Below, one piece after another: positions 5 to 7,610 of a stretch of DNA of 10,126 nucleotides. The stretch lies in NCBI GenBank assembly GCA_031290675.1, contig JAITNC010000222.1:1-10126 (forward strand). The letters run 5' to 3'. The position numbers and the translations under genes are program-made. The stretch is from Campylobacteraceae bacterium (lineage in GTDB: Bacteria; Campylobacterota; Campylobacteria; Campylobacterales; Campylobacteraceae). Within the stretch, counting starts at the first letter, position 1, and the number at the start of each line of letters is the position of its first letter. A model generated the notes under the pieces. The model was not told the origin of the DNA. It made no database searches and was given only the letters and a program-made list of their open reading frames with translations.

Positions 5-108
5 ATAAAACCTTACAAGGAAAAGTTATAAATATAACAAGAGTGGTGTTTTTAATGCGGCTTGGGTACAATGCAATGTCTTTATCTCAACACAAAGCTT
101 ATAAATGA
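5..108 (+). pseudogene. decayed partial copy of the 5' end of the following gene
   Basis: Bases 5-75 repeat, with a few small gaps and substitutions, the Shine-Dalgarno region and first codons of the gene at 142. The shared parts include ATAAAACC, TTACAAGG, AATATAACAAGAG and GCGGCTTGGGTACAAT. The position of the start ATG is ATA here (28-30). Reading on gives INITRVVFLMRLGYN, against MNITREAFLTRLGYN in the intact gene. After base 75 the similarity stops and the frame ends at TGA 106-108. The frame is also open back to the window edge, so it could be the tail of a longer upstream reading frame. Most likely it is the remnant of a tandem duplication, and not translated because the start is lost. 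Confidence 0.6.
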
Positions 109-141
109 ATATCTGATAAAACCTTTACAAGGAGAGAAGTT

Positions 142-474
142 ATGAATATAACAAGAGAGGCGTTTTTGACGCGGCTTGGGTACAATGTAACGGACGCACT
201 GTTGGCGCAGCTTGAAAAAGTGAGCGGCAACACCACAGAGTTTGAGCGCATAGCGAGCCACATCGTAACGCTAAACGACACGCTGAGGGCGTATGACTCA
301 TTTGTCGTACTTTCCAACTCACACGACTTTTTGAAGATAAAAAATCAAGCCAAAGCGGGGTTTGCCGCCGAAGCCAACAGCCTTATAAACAGTTGGGCAA
401 AAAAGTATAAAGTAGATATTGAGAAGGTTGATGGCAAAGAAACGTTTTATATCAAGGGCTACGAGAAGGGCTAA
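142..474 (+). CDS. hypothetical protein, 110 residues
   Basis: I do not recognise the family. The ATG at 142 is preceded by a strong AAGGAGAG at 127-134, which fixes the start. The product has no signal peptide and no membrane segment, so it should be cytoplasmic. Its first two thirds look helical, with alternating charged and hydrophobic residues (for example LLAQLEKVSGNTTEFERIA), followed by a Lys-rich C-terminus ending in YEKG. GC content is higher than in the lipoprotein operon downstream. A degenerate copy of its start lies immediately upstream, which suggests local tandem duplication. No terminator is obvious after the stop; the next promoter starts within about 25 bases. It is probably a real gene because of its ribosome-binding site and codon use; the function is unknown. 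Confidence 0.7.
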   Translation: MNITREAFLTRLGYNVTDALLAQLEKVSGNTTEFERIASHIVTLNDTLRAYDSFVVLSNSHDFLKIKNQAKAGFAAEANSLINSWAKKYKVDIEKVDGKETFYIKGYEKG

Positions 475-498
475 ACAACATCACTTTATCACAATAAG

Positions 499-526
499 TT
501 GTTTGTAAGACTAAAACGAATATAAT
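499..526 (+). promoter_or_regulatory. sigma70-type promoter of the lipoprotein operon
   Basis: A perfect -10 TATAAT lies at 521-526 and a fair -35 TTGTTT at 499-504, with a 16-base spacer. Transcription would begin near 533, just before the palindrome at 536-551. The same layout, without gaps, occurs at 2160-2187 before the barrel gene. Confidence 0.6.
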
Positions 527-535
527 TTTTGCTCG

Positions 536-551
536 ACTTGTTTAGACAAGT
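536..551 (+). promoter_or_regulatory. 16-base palindrome ACTTGT-TTAG-ACAAGT, shared operator or 5' mRNA hairpin
   Basis: Perfect 6-base arms surround a 4-base loop. It begins 10 bases after the end of the -10 and ends 23 bases before the start codon at 575. The same palindrome, at exactly the same distances from the -10 and from the start codon, occurs at 2197-2212. At this position it could be a repressor site overlapping the initial transcribed region, or a stem-loop at the extreme 5' end of the mRNA. The sequence alone does not decide between these. Confidence 0.6.
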
Positions 552-574
552 TAGAAAACATTAAGGATTTTACT

Positions 575-973
575 ATGTTGTTGAAAAATAGCACCGTAAG
601 CCGCATCGTGGGATTTGTGCTTGTTTTGGTTTTTTTAGGCGGTTGTTCATCTTTATTTGATCCAAAATCAGACGAACAATTGACAGTTGCCAAAGCTCAA
701 AAAGAGATAAAAGTGGGTATGAGTTCCGCTGAAGTTATTGAGGTTATGGGCTCACCAAACATCATCTCCACCGATAGCGATAGACGAGAGGTTTGGGTAT
801 ATGATAAAATCTCAACCCAAGAAGCTTCAAAAAGTGCCTCAGGCGGACTTATATTATTTTTTAGCGGTAGAAGCTCAAGTTCCGCAAAATCCCAAAGAAC
901 TCTTACTGTAATTGTCAAATTTGACAGCGAGCAAAAAGTAAGAGATGTCGCATACCATACTTCAAGTTTTTAA
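575..973 (+). CDS. BamE/SmpA-like lipoprotein
   Basis: 132 residues. The N-terminus has a basic start, a hydrophobic stretch and a lipobox LGGC with the acylated Cys at residue 24, so this is a lipoprotein in the periplasmic face of a membrane. Residues about 39-78 fit the SmpA/OmlA (BamE) fold signature: a helix with KVGMSSAEVIEVMGSPN, then REVWVYD. A Ser/Gly-rich loop with a hydrophobic patch (LILFF, 92-96) interrupts the domain before the final strands (TLTVIVKF). BamE is part of the outer-membrane protein assembly complex, but many unrelated lipoproteins carry this domain. I therefore call only the domain, not a Bam role. It is the first gene of a three-lipoprotein operon; a 16-base gap leads to the next gene. 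The AAGGA at 563-567 supports the ATG at 575. Confidence 0.82.
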   Translation: MLLKNSTVSRIVGFVLVLVFLGGCSSLFDPKSDEQLTVAKAQKEIKVGMSSAEVIEVMGSPNIISTDSDRREVWVYDKISTQEASKSASGGLILFFSGRSSSSAKSQRTLTVIVKFDSEQKVRDVAYHTSSF

Positions 974-989
974 ATTATAGGAGATTTAT

Positions 990-1544
990 TTGAAAAAATA
1001 TATTATTAATGTATTTTTGATGTGTGCAGCTATGATATTTTTATCGGGGTGTACATCAACTCCTACTGCAAAAGATATGGTAAGTATAGAAGAATCTACG
1101 CTTCAAGAGAGGCAGATGCAGACGAGAAGCTTTGACACAGCAAATGAGTCTGTGATATTTTCATCAAGCGTTGCGACACTTCAAGACCTTGGATTTAACA
1201 TAGACGAAATCGATAGAAATTTTGGGTTGATCACGTGCTCAAAGACGAGAGATGCGAGGGAAGTTGGTGCGCAGGTAGGCAATTTTTTCTTAGGCCTTGC
1301 GGGTGCTCTCGTAGGTATTCACGTCGGTGACAATACTGACAATATGCAAACTATCTTAGTTACAGTTGTGACCACCCCCAAAGAGATACAAGACAAGACA
1401 AATGTCAGAATAAACATCAAAAGAATCATCAGAAACAAACAAGGGTATATCAAAACGATTGAAACCGTTAGCGAACCTAGCATATATGATGAATTTTTTG
1501 GAAGATTATCAAAAGCAGTTTTTTTGGAGGCAAGTAACATATGA
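990..1544 (+). CDS. lipoprotein, paralogue A, with Gly-rich hydrophobic insert
   Basis: 184 residues. The start is TTG at 990, chosen because AGGAG (979-983) lies 6 bases upstream and the signal peptide MKKYIINVFL begins there. The lipobox is LSGC with Cys at residue 21. The body shares with the next gene a conserved core (QTRSFD, then SVATLQDLGF, then a TCSK/TATK strand) and the ending FFGRLSKAVFLE. Between these, residues about 92-113 form a Gly/Ala-rich hydrophobic segment (GNFFLGLAGALVG) that the paralogue lacks. This could be a glycine-zipper-like membrane hairpin. I do not know a named function for the family. The last bases overlap the next start codon as ATGA, so the two are translationally coupled. 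Confidence 0.8.
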   Translation: MKKYIINVFLMCAAMIFLSGCTSTPTAKDMVSIEESTLQERQMQTRSFDTANESVIFSSSVATLQDLGFNIDEIDRNFGLITCSKTRDAREVGAQVGNFFLGLAGALVGIHVGDNTDNMQTILVTVVTTPKEIQDKTNVRINIKRIIRNKQGYIKTIETVSEPSIYDEFFGRLSKAVFLEASNI

Positions 1545-1975
1545 AAAGATATTTCAGTTTAGTTGGTATATTGGTGGTGGCAGTAGTTTTTATTGGTTGT
1601 GCTACGGACTCAAAACAGTTGATACTCGACGATGTTCAACAGGTAGAGGTCAGAAGTTATCAGACCAGGACATATGAACAGCCAAAGCCTGCGGTATTGA
1701 GAGCTGTAGTTTCTACGCTACAGGACTTAAGCTTCATAGCCGACAAAGTAGATATGGAAAGCGGTACGGTTACAGCGACCAAATTAACTCAGCGTGCATC
1801 ATTAAAAATCACTATAGTCGCCAGGGAAAAGGGCGATAACGCGACCAATGTCAGGGCAAATGCTCAGTTTAGTTCCGCAGGCTCGATGCCAAAAGCGGTA
1901 GATGACCCTGAAACATACAATGCATTTTTTACAGCATTGGACAAGGCAGTATTTTTAGATAATGAGGGAATATAA
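1541..1975 (+). CDS. lipoprotein, paralogue B
   Basis: 144 residues. The lipobox is FIGC with Cys at residue 20. Its core (QTRTYEQPK, RAVVSTLQDLSF, GTVTATK) and its C-terminus (FFTALDKAVFLD) match the preceding gene closely, so the two are tandem paralogues. This one is about 40 residues shorter because the Gly-rich segment and part of the following strands are missing. The ATG is inside the ATGA overlap with the upstream stop. The gene is followed at once by a strong terminator, which ends the operon. It is probably a periplasm-facing envelope lipoprotein. Function is unknown; the pairing suggests that the two products interact or substitute for each other. Confidence 0.8.
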   Translation: MKRYFSLVGILVVAVVFIGCATDSKQLILDDVQQVEVRSYQTRTYEQPKPAVLRAVVSTLQDLSFIADKVDMESGTVTATKLTQRASLKITIVAREKGDNATNVRANAQFSSAGSMPKAVDDPETYNAFFTALDKAVFLDNEGI

Positions 1976-2001
1976 AAAACAGGCACATTTGTGCCTGTTT
2001 T
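1976..2001. terminator. bidirectional rho-independent terminator
   Basis: A perfect 12-base inverted repeat (AAAACAGGCACA, then TGTGCCTGTTTT) surrounds a 2-base centre. On the plus strand it is followed by TTTTA and ends the lipoprotein operon. On the minus strand the T run is longer (TTTTTT), so it would also stop transcription from the right. Confidence 0.9.
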
Positions 2002-2010
2002 ACTTATAAC

Positions 2011-2130
2011 TCATCTCTCTTTAGCCTGTGTCACATCGCTTCTTAAGGTATAGCCTAAAATATCAAAATTACACCCCGTGATTTTGGGCAAATGTTCTAT
2101 TTTTGATAAAATCTTGCTAAAATTTCTCAA
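2011..2130 (-). CDS. candidate small protein, 39 residues
   Basis: This minus-strand frame begins at TTG (2130-2128) and stops at TGA (2013-2011), ten bases before a terminator whose longer T run is on this strand. The product would be Lys/Arg-rich with a Pro-Gly-Cys centre (LPKITGCNFDILGYTLRSD). It has no convincing Shine-Dalgarno; a GGTGAT lies farther upstream. It may be a small gene, the remnant of a gene, or chance in a 260-base gap. The rest of the gap holds the promoter of the barrel gene. Confidence 0.25.
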   Translation of the reverse strand: MRNFSKILSKIEHLPKITGCNFDILGYTLRSDVTQAKER

Positions 2131-2159
2131 TATTATTTAAATATCACCATTATAATAAG

Positions 2160-2187
2160 TTACTTATAAGATAAAATTAAATATACT
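2160..2187 (+). promoter_or_regulatory. promoter of the outer-membrane barrel gene
   Basis: A -10 TATACT lies at 2182-2187 and a -35-like TTACTT at 2160-2165, with a 16-base spacer as in the lipoprotein promoter at 499-526. The -35 lies within a 13-base perfect palindrome ATAAGT-T-ACTTAT (2155-2167), whose counterpart at 494-506 is imperfect. A second possible -10, TATAAT, is at 2151-2156. Confidence 0.5.
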
Positions 2188-2195
2188 TTTCAATC

Positions 2196-2213
2196 AACTT
2201 GTTAAAACAAGTT
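2196..2213 (+). promoter_or_regulatory. palindrome AACTTGT-TAAA-ACAAGTT, second copy of the shared element
   Basis: Perfect 7-base arms surround a 4-base loop. The core 2197-2212 starts 10 bases after the end of the -10 (2187) and ends 23 bases before the TTG start at 2236. Both distances equal those at 536-551. It is a candidate operator or 5' mRNA hairpin shared by the two transcription units. Confidence 0.6.
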
Positions 2214-2235
2214 AAAATCTTATAAGGAGAATATT

Positions 2236-2847
2236 TTGAAAAAAATGTCATTTAGAAAATTGTTACTTATCGGAAGCTTAATGGGACTTACTGTCTCGCC
2301 TGTGTTGGCTGACGACAATGGTTGGTTTGTAGGTGTCGAGGGGGGGGCAGGCAAGGTATTTGCTGGTGATGCCGTTGACGGCACCTCTATAGATTTTGGC
2401 ATCAAAGCCGGTTACTATCTGAACGCTAACTCAAGAGCTTATGTTGCTTACAACAGAAATAGCAATGCAGAAACAACATACGCTACATCCTACAATTCAA
2501 ACAACGGTATTACTACTACTTGGAGTAGTACAACCAGTGTAGATGTACTTGGAGCAGGATATGATGTTTTGTTAGGACAGAGTAGCTTAAAGCTTGTTGC
2601 AGGTGGTCAAGTCGGACTTGGTATGGTTACCTTTGAAGAAGAGATTTCCAATAGTGCAGGTGCCTCGATTGCTGTTTCGGACAGTAAAATAGGACTAAAT
2701 CTTGGTCTTAAAGTGGGCGGTCTTTATGACATCACCGAAAACCATAAAGTTGAGTTAGGGCTTAAAGCCGCATTAACTACCGTTACAGTTGATGATTCGT
2801 ATACAAAACATATTGGAATTTACGCTGGATATAGCTACAAATTCTAA
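2236..2847 (+). CDS. outer-membrane beta-barrel protein
   Basis: 203 residues. TTG at 2236 is chosen over the in-frame ATG at 2245 because AAGGAGA (2224-2230) is well spaced only for the TTG. A signal peptide ends at VLA, with cleavage after residue 25. The mature part of about 178 residues shows alternating hydrophobic/polar strands and Gly-rich turns, starting GWFVGVEGGAG and ending YAGYSYKF with the C-terminal Phe typical of outer-membrane barrels. The size fits an eight-stranded OmpA-like or OmpX-like barrel. A Ser/Thr/Asn-rich stretch (about residues 75-100) would be a long surface loop. Codons 34-37 contain a run of eight G (2340-2347), which could allow slippage. The gene stands alone between its own promoter and a terminator. 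The specific function is unknown. Confidence 0.85.
   Translation: MKKMSFRKLLLIGSLMGLTVSPVLADDNGWFVGVEGGAGKVFAGDAVDGTSIDFGIKAGYYLNANSRAYVAYNRNSNAETTYATSYNSNNGITTTWSSTTSVDVLGAGYDVLLGQSSLKLVAGGQVGLGMVTFEEEISNSAGASIAVSDSKIGLNLGLKVGGLYDITENHKVELGLKAALTTVTVDDSYTKHIGIYAGYSYKF
2340..2347 (+). repeat. G8 homopolymer inside the barrel gene
   Basis: Eight consecutive G fall in the codons GAG GGG GGG GCA, about 105 bases after the start codon. The frame is open at this length. One extra G leads to TGA within about ten codons; one G fewer leads to TAG within about sixteen codons. Poly-G tracts of this length are known phase-variation sites in Campylobacter surface genes. Confidence 0.7.
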
Positions 2848-2874
2848 TTTTTGCCCTCCACACGGGGGGCAAAA
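2848..2874. terminator. bidirectional terminator between convergent genes
   Basis: The inverted repeat TTTTGCCCTCC (2849-2859), loop ACAC, GGGGGGCAAAA (2864-2874) makes an 11-base stem with one G-T wobble. It is flanked by T or A runs on both sides. It sits between the barrel gene and the convergent protease-like gene and can serve both. Confidence 0.85.
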
Positions 2875-3456
2875 CTACTCCCTCTCCTCAATCCACGCCA
2901 ATATCACCATCTTAAATGTAGCGTAAAACATCAAAGCATACCCTGCGATTTTGACAAGCATACTCACAAACCAATCATAACCAACCAATCCAAAAGCCGA
3001 TAGAACCGTGTAAAAATCGTGATAGCCATCAACGCCGAGAAAAGAGTTGGAAGCGCTCACATACAGCCCTTCGTGAGCGGTTGCGATATACCAAGCGGTG
3101 TATTGGGACGAGAAGCCTACAAAAAACAGCCCTATATAAAAACCAAAGTTATCTCCTCGCTTCTTGCAGATGCAGCCCGGCAAAAATGGAAAAAGCAACT
3201 GAAAAAGCGTGCCGTTTAGAGCTGTGAAAAAATCAGGACAATGAGCCAAATAACACACCCCATGTCCGCTTTCGTGCACCCAGCCAAGCGTAGTGTTTAT
3301 CACGTAAGAGTAGAGGATAAAAATCTCTTTTAAAAAACTATCTCCGTACAAAAAATGCTCATAAGGTTTGTATTTCATAAATAACAGCAAAAACAAAAAG
3401 CACAGTATTGCTATCGTTTTTTGCGCTGTTTTTGTGATTTTTGGCTCATTTTCCAC
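2875..3456 (-). CDS. membrane zinc metalloprotease-like protein (M50-like)
   Basis: 193 residues. The start is GTG (3456-3454), the only usable start before an in-frame stop upstream; its ribosome-binding site is weak. Residues 14-27 form a hydrophobic membrane segment. HESGH at 61-65 fits the HExxH zinc motif and lies in a hydrophobic context (TTLGWVHESGHGV), as in intramembrane M50 proteases. Further hydrophobic stretches follow around 84-97, 104-126, 148-166 and 169-188. VDGYHD at 142-147 could supply the third zinc ligand in the place of the LDG motif of M50 proteins. No PDZ domain is present. It would be an inner-membrane protein. The substrate is unknown and no partner gene is adjacent. 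A non-proteolytic membrane protein with a retained motif cannot be excluded. Confidence 0.75.
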   Translation of the reverse strand: MENEPKITKTAQKTIAILCFLFLLLFMKYKPYEHFLYGDSFLKEIFILYSYVINTTLGWVHESGHGVCYLAHCPDFFTALNGTLFQLLFPFLPGCICKKRGDNFGFYIGLFFVGFSSQYTAWYIATAHEGLYVSASNSFLGVDGYHDFYTVLSAFGLVGYDWFVSMLVKIAGYALMFYATFKMVILAWIEERE

Positions 3457-3517
3457 TTTGTCGTCCGCTTTAAAATAATTTCAAGATTTTTAGCTTGTAT
3501 ATTTTAGCGTCTCATTG

Positions 3518-3542
3518 GTAGTTTTTACTTAAATCAAAACAA
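3518..3542 (+). repeat. left direct repeat flanking the two-gene cassette
   Basis: The sequence gtagtttttacttaaatcaa followed by A-ACAA. It matches 5441-5465 in 24 of 25 positions in the same orientation. It lies between the start of the protease-like gene and the end of the 271-residue gene. Confidence 0.8.
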
Positions 3543-3557
3543 CAGAGCACAGATACT

Positions 3558-4373
3558 TTAAAATAAAGGAGGGCTATATGTACCTTTTTTATCGGGATAA
3601 AATATACCGATTATCGTAAAAGGATTTGGAGCAAACTTATCATAAAGATGCGTAGTACCTAAGAAAAAATATAAGTCTTTGGCGTCGGTAAAGTTATCTA
3701 ATTGTTTTAGAACTCCCATTTTTGCTTCATCTCTTGTCTGTTGTTTTCTTAAATTATTGTATAGCTGAAAAAATTCCCAATCAAGTATTGTCATGTCGCT
3801 TTCATAACCATCAATATCTTGAAATTCTATCTTAAAGCTATATGGGATTTTTGGCATATTGGTCAAATTTACGCTATCGTCATTGTCGAAAAGTGAGGCA
3901 TTCGCATCTTTAAATTGATTTTTTTCTGCTTGTGTCCAAGTTTCATCATCATCTTTATATTCTGCGTAATTTCTTATTATTTTTGCAGGCTTGAAGGTTG
4001 CCAAAGATATACCACTCTTTTTATGCTCAGAGATAAGCTCCTTTATACTTCTATAAATTTTATTTTTAAAAAGATAATCTTTGCGTTTTTGCCAATTATT
4101 TATTGTATCCAAATGACCAACAATCTCTATATCTTCCGAACTTTCAAGCCTGTGGCTTTCGGGTCTATGGTCTTTAGTGTTTTTGATAACAGGTACTCTG
4201 ATAATATCATATTTTTTATATTGTTTATCCTCAGACAATTTTCTAAACTGGACAGGATAAAGCCGTATCCACGAACCGTCTTTTCGCAAGCCTGCCGTGC
4301 AGACCAATTCGGTATATGTTTTTGAAATAACAGGATATGTCTTAACCGTGATAAGTATATCCTCTTTTGCCAT
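3558..4373 (-). CDS. conserved hypothetical protein, partner of the DUF488 fusion
   Basis: 271 residues, no signal peptide or membrane segment, so cytoplasmic. I do not recognise a named domain. Visible blocks are an N-terminal strand-rich part with LRKDGSWIRLYPVQFR (29-44), then YDIIRVPV and DHRPESHR (68-75), and a variable charged middle. The C-terminal part has PYSFKIEFQDIDG (177-189), ILDWEFFQLYNNL (196-208), and FFLGTTHLYDKFAPNPFTIIGIFYP (236-260; this stretch looks like a conserved core). The ATG follows the upstream stop after one base (TAA C ATG), so translation is coupled to the DUF488 gene. The coding sequence is clearly more AT-rich than cstA, which suggests acquisition. My impression from related proteins is that such a partner often accompanies DUF488 fusions, but I cannot name a tested function. 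Confidence 0.7.
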   Translation of the reverse strand: MAKEDILITVKTYPVISKTYTELVCTAGLRKDGSWIRLYPVQFRKLSEDKQYKKYDIIRVPVIKNTKDHRPESHRLESSEDIEIVGHLDTINNWQKRKDYLFKNKIYRSIKELISEHKKSGISLATFKPAKIIRNYAEYKDDDETWTQAEKNQFKDANASLFDNDDSVNLTNMPKIPYSFKIEFQDIDGYESDMTILDWEFFQLYNNLRKQQTRDEAKMGVLKQLDNFTDAKDLYFFLGTTHLYDKFAPNPFTIIGIFYPDKKGTYSPPLF

Positions 4374-4374
4374 G

Positions 4375-5274
4375 TTATATATGCCTAATCTCTAATTTGT
4401 ATGATGTATTTATCTTGGTTGCTATACAACCTCTGTGGCACATATTTACATCTTTTTCGTAGCACATTATAGCCATTCTATCGTAGGTATCGTATAGATA
4501 CAAGAGTTGTTCCAAATCTTTTTTTGCATACTTTAAAGTGCTATCTTTATATATATCAAAAAGTGCTGCGTAGTCCTCTTTGGTTTTTAGGTTTTTTCTC
4601 TCTTCTGATGCTATCCCCAAACTTGGGATATGAATATATTTTATGTTAATTTTCTCAAGCGTATTAGCCAAAAATGCTTTTGAAAACCCAAACTTCATAC
4701 TTAGCGCATTTTTCCTTACATCAACCAATATCCGCACATCATTTTTTATCAGGTTGTTGATAAAACTCTCAATACTCTTACCTTCATACCCAATGGTAAA
4801 AAATTGTTTTTCGCATATATACGGTTTGTGTGATTTTATTATTTGCTTGTCTATATGCTCATCTGCTATTTTGCTGTTTATCGCAAAGTATGGGAAGTTA
4901 TTATATACATGAGATATCAATTCTTTGCCTCTGATATTATTAAATCTTTTGCTAAAATCTTTTAGTTTTATTTGTTCGTTTTTATCCAAGAAGTCTAAAA
5001 AATTGATTGTGGTCGATTTTTTCTCATAAATTTCTGCATTTGATAAAAATCCATATTGTCGCATCGTATTCATATCATTGTTGGCTTGAAAAGAGTAGCA
5101 ACCATACATATAAGGTACAAAGTCATAGCTTTTATCCTGCTGCTCATCAACATACAAAAACAGAAGTTTTTGAAAGTCAATTTTTGACAACTGAGCACCA
5201 CTGCTTTCCAATAGTGCTAGTGCCAATCGTTGTCTTTTGTATGTCGGTAACTCTCTCGTAATAATATTTTTCAC
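4375..5274 (-). CDS. Panacea/SocA-like domain fused to DUF488 domain
   Basis: 299 residues. The start is GTG (5274-5272) with GGAG (5285-5282) seven bases upstream; no better in-frame start exists before a stop. Residues about 12-80 resemble the SocA/Panacea (DUF4065-like) winged-helix antitoxin fold: DFQKLLFLY (33-41), YDFVPYMYGCYSF (50-62), MRQYGFL. Residues about 157-295 are a DUF488 domain: FTIGYEGKSIESFI, LVDVRKNALSMKFGFSK (183-199), SLGI, and the closing MCYEKD (270-275) and CHR (279-281). DUF488 function is not established; its Asp/Arg and Cys-His-Arg motifs suggest an enzyme or a nucleic-acid or nucleotide binder. It is the first gene of a two-gene unit with its own promoter and AT-rich composition unlike its neighbours. 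The N-terminal assignment is from pattern memory and is less sure than DUF488. Confidence 0.78.
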   Translation of the reverse strand: MKNIITRELPTYKRQRLALALLESSGAQLSKIDFQKLLFLYVDEQQDKSYDFVPYMYGCYSFQANNDMNTMRQYGFLSNAEIYEKKSTTINFLDFLDKNEQIKLKDFSKRFNNIRGKELISHVYNNFPYFAINSKIADEHIDKQIIKSHKPYICEKQFFTIGYEGKSIESFINNLIKNDVRILVDVRKNALSMKFGFSKAFLANTLEKINIKYIHIPSLGIASEERKNLKTKEDYAALFDIYKDSTLKYAKKDLEQLLYLYDTYDRMAIMCYEKDVNMCHRGCIATKINTSYKLEIRHI

Positions 5275-5295
5275 ACAAATACTCCATTGTCGCTT

Positions 5296-5322
5296 ATTAT
5301 ATTAATTTGTCTATTCTATCAA
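5296..5322 (-). promoter_or_regulatory. promoter of the DUF488 cassette
   Basis: On the minus strand, -35 TTGATA (5322-5317) and -10 TATAAT (5301-5296) are 15 bases apart. The start of transcription would be near 5289, giving a leader of about 15 bases to the GTG at 5274. Confidence 0.5.
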
Positions 5323-5334
5323 AAATATCTCCCA

Positions 5335-5354
5335 TTTTGCTGCACGATGCAAAA
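5335..5354. promoter_or_regulatory. inverted repeat upstream of the cassette promoter
   Basis: TTTTGC, 8 bases, GCAAAA. It sits just upstream of the -35 of the DUF488 promoter, centred about 55 bases before its predicted transcription start, where an activator could bind. The remainder of the gap to cstA is AT-rich and includes an 8-base AT-only hairpin (5369-5387). Confidence 0.25.
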
Positions 5355-5440
5355 ATCTGCCACATTTTATTTTTATGAAATAAAAATTATCCCCAAAAAT
5401 TTAATGTTAAGTTAAAATGATTTGTGATAGCTTCTTGCTA

Positions 5441-5465
5441 GTAGTTTTTACTTAAATCAACACAA
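5441..5465 (+). repeat. right direct repeat flanking the two-gene cassette, within the cstA leader
   Basis: The first 20 bases are identical to 3518-3537; one mismatch at 5461 is followed by ACAA again. It ends 12 bases before the cstA ATG, directly before its Shine-Dalgarno GGGGG. This copy therefore probably belongs to the ancestral cstA upstream region. Confidence 0.8.
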
Positions 5466-5477
5466 TGGGGGTGCGAT

Positions 5478-7610
5478 ATGTCGTACAAAAGTAGCGAGGG
5501 CAAGAGTATCTTGCCTAAGATTGCATGGGGTTTGATTGCGATAGTAGGAGCGTTTGCTTTGGGCTATGTAGCGCTCAGGAGAGGCGAGGCCATCAATGCC
5601 GTGTGGGTTTTGATAGCTTCTGTTTGTGTGTATCTTATAGGCTACAGATATTATGGGCTTTACATAGCCGACAAAGTTGTACTGGCTGATAAGACACGTC
5701 TGACGCCGGCTTTCCGCCACAATGACGGACTTGATTATGTGCCGACCAACAGAGTGATACTTTTTGGACACCACTTCGCGGCTATCGCAGGAGCCGGTCC
5801 TTTGGTCGGTCCTGTTTTGGCGGCGCAGATGGGTTATCTGCCCGGTATGTTGTGGCTTTTGGCGGGCGTCGTGCTAGCCGGAGCCGTGCAAGACTTTTTG
5901 GTGCTGTTTGTCTCCACGAGGCGCGATGGGCGCTCTTTGGGCGAGCTCATCAAGCAAGAGATGGGCACTGCCGCCGGAGTGATAGGCCTCATAGCGTGTT
6001 TTATGATTATGGTCATCATCTTGGCGATACTTGCGATAGTCGTCGTCAAAGCCCTTGCTCACAGCCCTTGGGGTACATTTGCCGTAGGGTTTACGATACC
6101 TTTGGCGCTCATCATGGGCGTGTATCTTAGATTTATAAGACCCGGAAGGATTTTGGAGATATCTATTTTCGGTTTTATAGGACTTATAGCGGGCATATTG
6201 CTCGGCGGTGTAGTAGCGGAAAGCCCGACGTGGGCGAGCGTATTTGACCTCAGCGGCGAAACGCTCACTTGGATAGTCATAGTTTATGGCTTTATCGCAT
6301 CTGTCATACCTGTATGGCTTTTGCTCGCACCTCGTGATTATCTCTCTACATTTTTAAAGATAGGCGTTATTTTGGGGCTTGCTCTTGGTATCTTGATAGT
6401 GATGCCTATGCTTGAGATGCCAGCCCTCACAAAATACGCTTTCGGCGACCACGGCCCCGTTTGGAGCGGCAGTTTGTTTCCGTTTTTGTTTATAACGATA
6501 GCGTGCGGAGCTGTTTCGGGATTTCACGCACTCATAGCTTCAGGCACAACGCCAAAAATGTTACCAAACGAAAAGGACGCGAGATTTATCGGTTATGGCG
6601 GAATGCTTATGGAGTCTTTCGTGGGTATCATGGCTCTTATAGCCGCTTCCATCATCAATCCGGGTGTCTACTTTGCTATGAACGCCCCGCTCGCCGCTCT
6701 CAACCCTGAGGGCTTGCAAGATATAGCTATCGCCGCCGCACAGACAGTGAGCAATTGGGGATTTGTCATCAATCCTGAAGACCTCACGAGGTTGGCTTCA
6801 GATGTCGGCGAACAGAGCATCATCTCCCGCACGGGCGGCGCACCAACGCTTGCTGTCGGTATGGCGCTCATCATACACAGCGTGTTTGAGTCTATGGGCT
6901 CAAGTATGGCGTTTTGGTATCACTTCGCGATTTTGTTTGAGGCGCTGTTTATCTTGACGGCGGTTGATGCGGGCACGAGGTCGGCTAGATTTATGCTTCA
7001 AGATTTGTTGGGTCTTGTACACCCTACTTTGAAAAAGACAAGTTCTATCCCTGCAAATCTTTTCGCGACACTGTTGGTCGTAAGCTCTTGGGGTTACTTC
7101 CTCTACGCCGGCGTCGTAGACCCTCTGGGCGGCATCAATACGCTATGGCCGCTGTTTGGTATATCAAATCAGATGTTGGCCGCTATCGCTTTGATGTTGT
7201 GCACAGTTGTACTCTTTAAGATGAAACAGCACAAATACGCTTGGGTTCCGATACTGCCGACGGCTTGGCTGCTCATTTGTACGATGATAGCCGGTTGGCA
7301 AAAAGCGTTTTCGTCCGACCCTGCTATCAGCTTTTTGGCTAAAGCGGCGCAGTTGAAAGATATGATAGCGAACGGCTTCACGCCAAGCGCGACATTTAAG
7401 AGCGTGGAGCAGGTGGAGCAGGTCATATTTAACAACCAGCTGGACGGCGTTTTGACGGTAGTGTTTATGATAGTCGTCGTGGCGTTGGGAGTGTTTACCA
7501 TCAAATCGTGCATTGAGGGTTACAAAAACCCCAAACCTTCGTCCAACGAAGTCCCTTACGAGCCTATGCCGTCTAACGCTGAGGATATCCTAAGGGGAGC
7601 GGTTCATTAG
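5478..7610 (+). CDS. cstA: CstA family pyruvate/peptide transporter
   Basis: 710 residues, close to the about 700 of E. coli CstA and BtsT (YjiY). This is a polytopic inner-membrane protein with roughly 16-18 hydrophobic segments. Family motifs are visible: NRVILFGHHFAAIAGAGP (91-108), GPVLAAQMGYLPGMLWL and GAVQDF (135-140), then CGAVSGFHALIASGTTPKM in the middle. E. coli members import pyruvate; CstA of Campylobacter jejuni has been linked to peptide and pyruvate uptake, so the substrate here is one or both. The ATG at 5478 has GGGGG at 5467-5471. It heads a cluster with ybdD and yjiA, the same order as E. coli btsT-yjiX-yjiA. GC content is clearly higher than in the cassette upstream. No BtsSR-type regulator is in the window. 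Confidence 0.95.
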   Translation: MSYKSSEGKSILPKIAWGLIAIVGAFALGYVALRRGEAINAVWVLIASVCVYLIGYRYYGLYIADKVVLADKTRLTPAFRHNDGLDYVPTNRVILFGHHFAAIAGAGPLVGPVLAAQMGYLPGMLWLLAGVVLAGAVQDFLVLFVSTRRDGRSLGELIKQEMGTAAGVIGLIACFMIMVIILAILAIVVVKALAHSPWGTFAVGFTIPLALIMGVYLRFIRPGRILEISIFGFIGLIAGILLGGVVAESPTWASVFDLSGETLTWIVIVYGFIASVIPVWLLLAPRDYLSTFLKIGVILGLALGILIVMPMLEMPALTKYAFGDHGPVWSGSLFPFLFITIACGAVSGFHALIASGTTPKMLPNEKDARFIGYGGMLMESFVGIMALIAASIINPGVYFAMNAPLAALNPEGLQDIAIAAAQTVSNWGFVINPEDLTRLASDVGEQSIISRTGGAPTLAVGMALIIHSVFESMGSSMAFWYHFAILFEALFILTAVDAGTRSARFMLQDLLGLVHPTLKKTSSIPANLFATLLVVSSWGYFLYAGVVDPLGGINTLWPLFGISNQMLAAIALMLCTVVLFKMKQHKYAWVPILPTAWLLICTMIAGWQKAFSSDPAISFLAKAAQLKDMIANGFTPSATFKSVEQVEQVIFNNQLDGVLTVVFMIVVVALGVFTIKSCIEGYKNPKPSSNEVPYEPMPSNAEDILRGAVH

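Follow-up and report, generated by a model that had tools for sequence, protein, structure and literature searches.

The stretch of DNA analyzed here, referred to as the window, comprises 10,126 nucleotides from a Campylobacteraceae bacterium, and it carries on its forward strand two transcription units which are each preceded by a copy of the same 84-base module. The first unit is an operon of three genes (575-1975), of which the leading gene (575..973, target 1) encodes a BamE-domain lipoprotein (PF04355 in Pfam, with an E of 2.5e-6 that passes the cut-off), while the second (990..1544) and third (1541..1975) encode lipoprotein-like products that match no Pfam family. The second unit begins with a gene (2236..2847, target 2) for a probable outer-membrane beta-barrel of 203 aa, which matches Pfam and NCBIfam barrel models below their curated cut-offs. 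Module copy 1 lies on the same strand at 491..574, upstream of the lipoprotein operon, and module copy 2 at 2152..2235, upstream of the barrel gene, and both appear to consist of a promoter with putative operators.

The original prediction described these two stretches as an ungapped pair with 58 of 84 bases identical, in which the promoter boxes, a palindrome and the spacing to the start codon all fall in register, and a direct re-count over the window confirms this description. The 58 identities are not exceeded by any other ungapped pairing of 84-base stretches in the window, and the value is far above those obtained from base shuffles of both stretches (mean 27.8, sd 4.0, maximum 47 in 20,000 shuffles). 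The -10 boxes assigned from the sequence, TATAAT at 521..526 and TATACT at 2182..2187, are in both copies separated by 9 bases from an exact ACTTGT-N4-ACAAGT palindrome, which is taken as the right-hand putative operator (ACTTGTTTAGACAAGT at 536..551 in copy 1, ACTTGTTAAAACAAGT at 2197..2212 in copy 2), and the end of the palindrome is in both copies 23 bases from the start codon. Exactly two loop bases differ within the palindrome, as had been stated, and its arms are conserved between the copies at 12 of 12 positions (p 0.0079 if the 58 matches were randomly scattered). The candidate -35 boxes, TTGTTT at 499-504 and TTACTT at 2160-2165, are also present in register in both copies, 16 bases from the -10, but the corresponding region in the set of 53 related loci described below has T-richness alone and no sharp box. 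The -10 does have a counterpart in those loci, where a -10-like, A/T-rich stretch occupies the corresponding position with respect to the palindrome.

When the whole assembly (245 contigs, 1.44 Mb, completeness 81%) was searched, three exact palindromes were found, against one for a reversed control pattern. The third lies at positions 2737-2752 of contig C139, inside the same module, which there stands upstream of a truncated barrel-gene start followed by a lipoprotein-like reading frame. In this region (around 2737-2900; L097, L003) the barrel start breaks off after the signal peptide and a different lipoprotein-like frame comes next, an arrangement that looks like promoter capture. Allowing up to three mismatches gave 18 and 20 places on the two strands of the genome and 14 and 12 for the control, which adds nothing clear; of six further places with two mismatches (L249-L254), five are in long open frames and one (L252) is intergenic without a module. 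At one locus of genome G005 (L006) an exact palindrome is present and the module is absent. A comparison of the module with Rfam produced no match, the sub-threshold matches being elsewhere only.

The palindrome recognized by eye is one half of a twin-operator module. The original prediction was correct in regarding it as real but overlooked a second operator 52 bp upstream, of which the AATAAGTT common to both window copies is the remnant. In the same-genus relatives L007, L008 and L009 the two sites read CCTTGT-N4-AYAAGT and ACTTGT-N4-ACAAGT, at distances of 52, 52 and 53 bp, and in both window copies the outer half of the left-hand site is eroded. The left-hand putative operator of copy 1 (484..499, CTTTATCACAATAAGT) fits at 8 of 12 arm positions and has the offset of the CCTTGTNNNNAYAAGT site in L007 and L008; that of copy 2 (2145..2160) fits at 6 of 12, with the promoter-side half ATAAGT alone left at the 52-bp offset of the relatives. 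Twin palindromes 46 to 59 bp apart around a promoter, the arrangement found across the family, are thus seen in the window with the right-hand member exact and the left-hand member eroded.

The relatives also show what adjoins the module when it is intact. In L007-L009, 96 to 98 bp separate the start codon of a barrel-type gene from that of a divergently transcribed gene, 84 to 90 codons long, which encodes an HTH_3/XRE protein. With copy 2 as a DNA query, seven clear module copies (E 3e-14 or better) were recovered from 14 genomes of the genus, copy 1 being too diverged for recovery by this search: two in the window's own genome (copy 2 and C139) and one each in G006, G007, G008, G011 and G013, and the modules in relatives are 78-82% identical to copy 2. 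All five of the homologous modules outside the window's genome, found in 5 of the 13 other genus genomes, adjoin an XRE gene, which has no internal stops in G006, G007, G008 and G011 and is decayed in G013. In the last of these (L021, contig C112, 369-557 and 690-764), a decaying XRE gene stands beside a near-intact module and a barrel gene, whose product is a relative of target 2 (33% identity, E 7e-24), and this locus would represent an intermediate between the intact pairs and the state of the window.

Beyond the genus, 71 of 153 family genomes contain XRE relatives (E 1e-8 or better), and the best 80 of 190 loci in a scan of species genomes include members of Campylobacteraceae, Helicobacter, Arcobacter, Sulfurimonas and Sulfurovum; relatives of the twin-operator module were found in Campylobacter, Helicobacter, Aliarcobacter and Sulfurimonas. 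Several XRE matches in family genomes carry internal stops, so that loss of the regulator beside such modules may be frequent. The predicted structure of the relatives' regulator is a five-helix fold whose third helix comprises residues 47-53 (pLDDT 95.6). The closest folds are C.BclI, which is the best match, C.AhdI and SinR, with 2cro and 3jxb also among the fold matches, and in sequence-profile matching SinR (3qq6) is best and C.BclI second. The N4 spacing of the palindrome recalls CRP/FNR-like operators, an assignment that was dropped once the divergent XRE genes emerged.

Twin operators were sought systematically in a scan of 126 distinct XRE proteins taken from 165 loci. A like palindrome pair with a score of at least 20 was found in 47 of the 126 upstream regions and in 2 of 378 dinucleotide shuffles, the pairs being chosen partly for likeness and the shuffles rarely yielding such pairs; the remaining 79 loci are below this score. 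At a score of 19 or more the counts are 54 of 126 and 4 of 378. One locus (L071) was removed because its sites are not centred palindromes, which leaves the 53-locus set. In this set the distance between the centre of the left operator and the start codon of the XRE gene is 7 to 21 bp in 52 loci and 35 bp in one, while the distance from the right operator centre to the start of the target has a median of 30.5 bp in the 50 loci with a divergent frame (range -18 to 154, the target start having been picked mechanically) and is 31 in both window copies. The operator centres are 46 to 59 bp apart across the family, a spread that leaves strict helical phasing unsupported, and because the spacing varies, DNA looping between the operators is not claimed.

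The sequence of the operators varies across this set together with that of the regulators. Partial Mantel correlations between operator and recognition-helix residues 43-53, controlled for distance in the rest of the protein, are 0.46 for the right operator and 0.51 for the left (n=53, p 2e-4), and none of 5000 permutations reached 0.46. When the set is thinned to 32 representatives that share less than 75% identity, the correlation is 0.37 (p 2e-4), and with the 16 that share less than 65% it is 0.41 (p 4e-4, a single permutation exceeding it); a variant run with slightly different columns gave 0.44, while the best 11-residue window not overlapping the helix gives 0.24 or less. Residue 20, which is outside the helix, likewise shows an effect on the operator. 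The correspondence can be read residue by residue: ACTTGT-N4-ACAAGT goes with helices reading S-C-A-E or S-L-A-E, and C or L at residue 51 goes with ACTTG operators in 11 of 12 loci (the exception, L153, has C). With F or Y at this residue the operators are ACTTAT in 7 of 7 loci, with N they are ATATCCTA in 6 of 6, with G they are CTCTAT-like in 8 of 9, and with V or M, which mostly accompany G at residue 47, they are of ACTAAC type in 15 of 17, the other two being shifted in register. In the sequences compared, the putative operator follows the recognition helix of the adjoining regulator, and a candidate recognition code can thereby be offered for a little-described XRE family.

This correspondence bears on the alternative raised in the original prediction, that the palindrome is a conserved 5' mRNA hairpin which controls stability or translation as a stem-loop at the end of the message. 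The palindrome does lie at the predicted 5' end, both copies are predicted to form a 7-bp stem with a 4-base loop (-5.7 and -5.3 kcal/mol over 28 bases, z -2.0 and -5.0), and the compensatory arm changes between operator classes are what an RNA stem would also require. The predicted stem is weak, however, and the left-hand palindrome, which is upstream of the target's -10, falls outside the target mRNA. Left and right sites are moreover alike in sequence beyond what self-complementarity demands, and the operator tracks the XRE recognition helix better than it tracks any non-overlapping part of the protein. The hairpin accounts for neither the left-hand site nor the correspondence with the helix, is not needed, and is considered very improbable.

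The link between the ACTTGT class and its helices was also approached from DNA alone, by searching 398 genomes of the order for a half-site combined with the ACTTGT-N4-ACAAGT pattern. There were 11 matches outside the window's genome, of which five adjoin an XRE gene. The helix reads SCAE in one of these, SCGE in another and SLAE in the other three; one of the genes carries a stop, and two of the five loci (L263, L269) had previously entered the set in a different way. The other six have no XRE gene: four are in long open frames and two are beside genes for a MarR (L262) and a GntR/UTRA (L270) regulator, so that the palindrome alone is not diagnostic.

In the window itself no intact divergent XRE gene stands beside the modules, unlike in the relatives, but there are signs that one once did. 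Beside copy 2, on the minus strand at 2099..2140, is what probably remains of a divergent XRE gene, namely its first 14 codons, with the start codon altered and one stop: the translation of this stretch, LNNIEKF*QDFIKN (2140-2099), is 57% identical to the regulator's first 14 residues, MKNIESFPEDFTKN. The remnant is short and weak. In tblastn it is the best window match of the query L047, at the expected place (E 0.065), it is matched by L050 and L051 at E 1.6 and 1.4, and its DNA alignment is marginal against composition shuffles (p 0.036). The remnant on C139 is clearer: 25 bases align at 92% (query L007, E 1.8e-5, shuffle p 0.002) and cover IVSCAEICRN, which is the recognition helix, with the SCAE codons kept. 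This is the helix type seen with ACTTGT operators, the class to which both exact palindromes of the window belong; copies 1 and 2 retain no helix, and beside copy 1 no regulator remnant was seen in the shuffle test (p 0.45). The SCAE remnant and the decayed genes together imply that the window's operators most likely come from a SCAE-type pair whose adjoining regulators have been lost. The original prediction, which recognized the duplicated promoter and palindrome, missed this decay of the adjoining regulator gene and with it the orphan state of the module. The assembly, which is 81% complete, yielded no intact gene for a cognate XRE protein, and its single XRE match (C168) has a different recognition helix.

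Two other accounts of the present state must be weighed at this point. Another dimeric regulator, of MarR, GntR, CRP/FNR or TetR type, may have taken over the palindromes in the window's genome, as would be consistent with the presence of ACTTGT-N4-ACAAGT beside MarR and GntR genes in other genomes of the order and with the failure to find a cognate XRE gene. Against such a takeover, every one of the five modules in genus relatives adjoins an XRE gene or its decayed remains, the C139 copy keeps XRE codons with matching recognition residues, and no other regulator-like gene was recognized next to the window's two copies; the idea is judged very unlikely. The decayed regulator genes, the eroded left operators and the lack of an intact cognate regulator in the assembly would suit a functionless leftover, in which the duplicates are kept merely as promoters and the palindrome is passive. 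The copies have diverged to 58 of 84 identities, yet all 12 right-operator arm positions agree (p 0.008), and the palindrome of the third copy is exact as well, which makes passive retention an unlikely, though not negligible, explanation.

The module is instead likely to consist of the operators of an XRE repressor, duplicated and separated from its regulator, a reading based on comparison of sequences: the module homologues, the adjacency of XRE genes in relatives, the covariation of operator and helix, and the regulator remnants. The suggestion of a regulon controlled by a dimeric regulator is well supported by these comparisons, and a likely class can now be named for promoters that previously had none, namely an XRE-type HTH protein of about 84 aa. 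We infer DNA binding, repression, autoregulation and the existence of a trans-acting regulator in the window's genome along the following lines. In the intact relatives the small divergent XRE protein would bind, as a dimer, to two like palindromes about 52 bp apart, of which the left closely precedes the start codon of the regulator gene, at about 42 bp upstream from where the target's transcript is inferred to start, and the right closely follows the -10 of the target, covering about +2 to +17. Occupancy of a site at this position should block transcription of the target, so that in the simplest interpretation binding most likely blocks both promoters, giving autorepression as well as repression of the target, although activation from the left site is possible. 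Repression would be lifted by some signal or by loss of the regulator protein. In the window's genome, where the lipoprotein operon, the barrel gene and the truncated barrel start with its lipoprotein frame on C139 are each preceded by the module, either one regulator would still act in trans on all three modules or the modules would have been released from control. It thus seems that a formerly private switch has come to stand before several genes.

Activation from the left site is the core of a further alternative, in which a dimer at about -42 activates the target and a dimer at the right-hand site represses it, in the manner of the controller (C) proteins of restriction-modification systems. 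C.BclI, C.AhdI, C.Esp1396I and C.Csp231I have a small XRE fold like that of the relatives' regulator, and such C proteins control their own gene from two palindromic operators, a likeness to the twin-operator module. The centre of the left operator does lie at this distance from the inferred start, controller proteins are the nearest folds, and 7 of 15 family members are matched by the control-protein models of PADLOC. It is, however, the right-hand operator that is exact in the window, the left-hand one being half eroded, and the family shows spacings between the sites of anything from 46 to 59 bp. A combined activator-repressor switch is considered unlikely, though not negligible. The module also differs from the controller systems in other respects. 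The targets are divergent, and the ACTTGT class has a gap of about 36 bp between its 16-bp sites, whereas the spacers are reported as 18 bp for C.Csp231I and 25 bp for EcoO109I (PMC4321490). No restriction or DNA methylase families were found by Pfam in nine frames of the window, or in 50 divergent target frames of relatives, where 22 Pfam families were recognized. Repressors of the SinR and CI-Cro type share the HTH fold of the relatives' regulator, which differs from them in its size (about 84 aa), in its operators and in its linkage to one divergent target; SinR and CI carry a separate oligomerization domain, and the XRE protein of about 84 aa has none. Within the titles and abstract openings surveyed, subscription papers being outside the scope, there is no account of these regulators or of the module in Campylobacterota.

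The order of the three lipoprotein genes is kept in L012-L016 and in Helicobacter sp. MIT 11-5569 (L173), and this operon, with its own local XRE regulator in 4 of 6 loci, differs in that respect from BamE-domain lipoproteins as a group, to which target 1 belongs. In L014-L016 the gene opposite the operon is a divergent XRE gene, broken by stops in L014, and the operators are of CCTATAGG type; in L173 the operon is likewise opposite a divergent XRE gene, and the operators are ACTTAT. The original prediction had looked to orthologous upstream regions in close relatives to keep the palindrome, and the outcome is mixed: a homologous module is retained in 5 of 13 genomes of the genus besides the window's own, but the operon orthologues in the same-genus loci L012 and L013 have no palindrome, and there is no XRE match on their contigs among the matches listed. 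Because the operator types differ among lineages, the same lipoprotein operon appears to be under at least three operator classes, or none.

The proposal that the regulon is one of envelope genes fits the window's own targets but does not extend to the wider family, whose targets are mixed. The Pfam families among the 50 target frames include barrels (6), GGDEF (4) and BamE (3), as well as glycosyltransferases, FkbM-type proteins and TerD; the target is in each case the first frame of 60 aa or more, a mechanical choice that is surely wrong for some loci (e.g. L051). A hydrophobic N-terminus was found in 28 of 50 target frames and, among the non-target frames of 150 aa or more from these loci, in 23 of 55, and a lipobox in 12 of 50 and 7 of 55, respectively. 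Signal-peptide-like starts are therefore not clearly commoner in targets than in neighbouring frames, and envelope targets as a family-wide rule were rejected. In Sulfurimonas and Sulfuricurvum (L155, L156, L158, L164) the ACTTGT class is linked to other targets, hinting that a switch of this type also serves signalling genes, GGDEF and PAS being among the target families of the set.

In its broadest form, the proposal would be that small XRE repressors throughout Campylobacterota are exchangeable cassettes, each made up of a regulator, its twin operators and a single divergent target, that residues 47 and 51 set the operator class in a code that can be read, and that modules captured by new genes then lose the local regulator and become a small trans regulon, the window showing the transition. 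This generalization is put forward tentatively, as one whose prospects fall slightly short of even. The case allows the spread of a local regulator and target switch to several genes to be followed, from regulator genes that are intact through those in decay to those that have been lost.

Other repeats of the same length occur in the window. Positions 1-84 and 115-198 are identical at 57 of 84 bases, which reflects a repeat of the start region of a 110-aa frame (142-474) that has no confident family. Positions 3488-3571 and 5411-5494 are identical at 53 of 84 and have TAGTTTTTACTTAAATCAAMACAA in common; the latter stretch is the leader of a CstA gene (5478-7610, Pfam CstA E 1.5e-248), and no such gene follows the copy at 3488-3571, so that the repeated leader is possibly another moved promoter.
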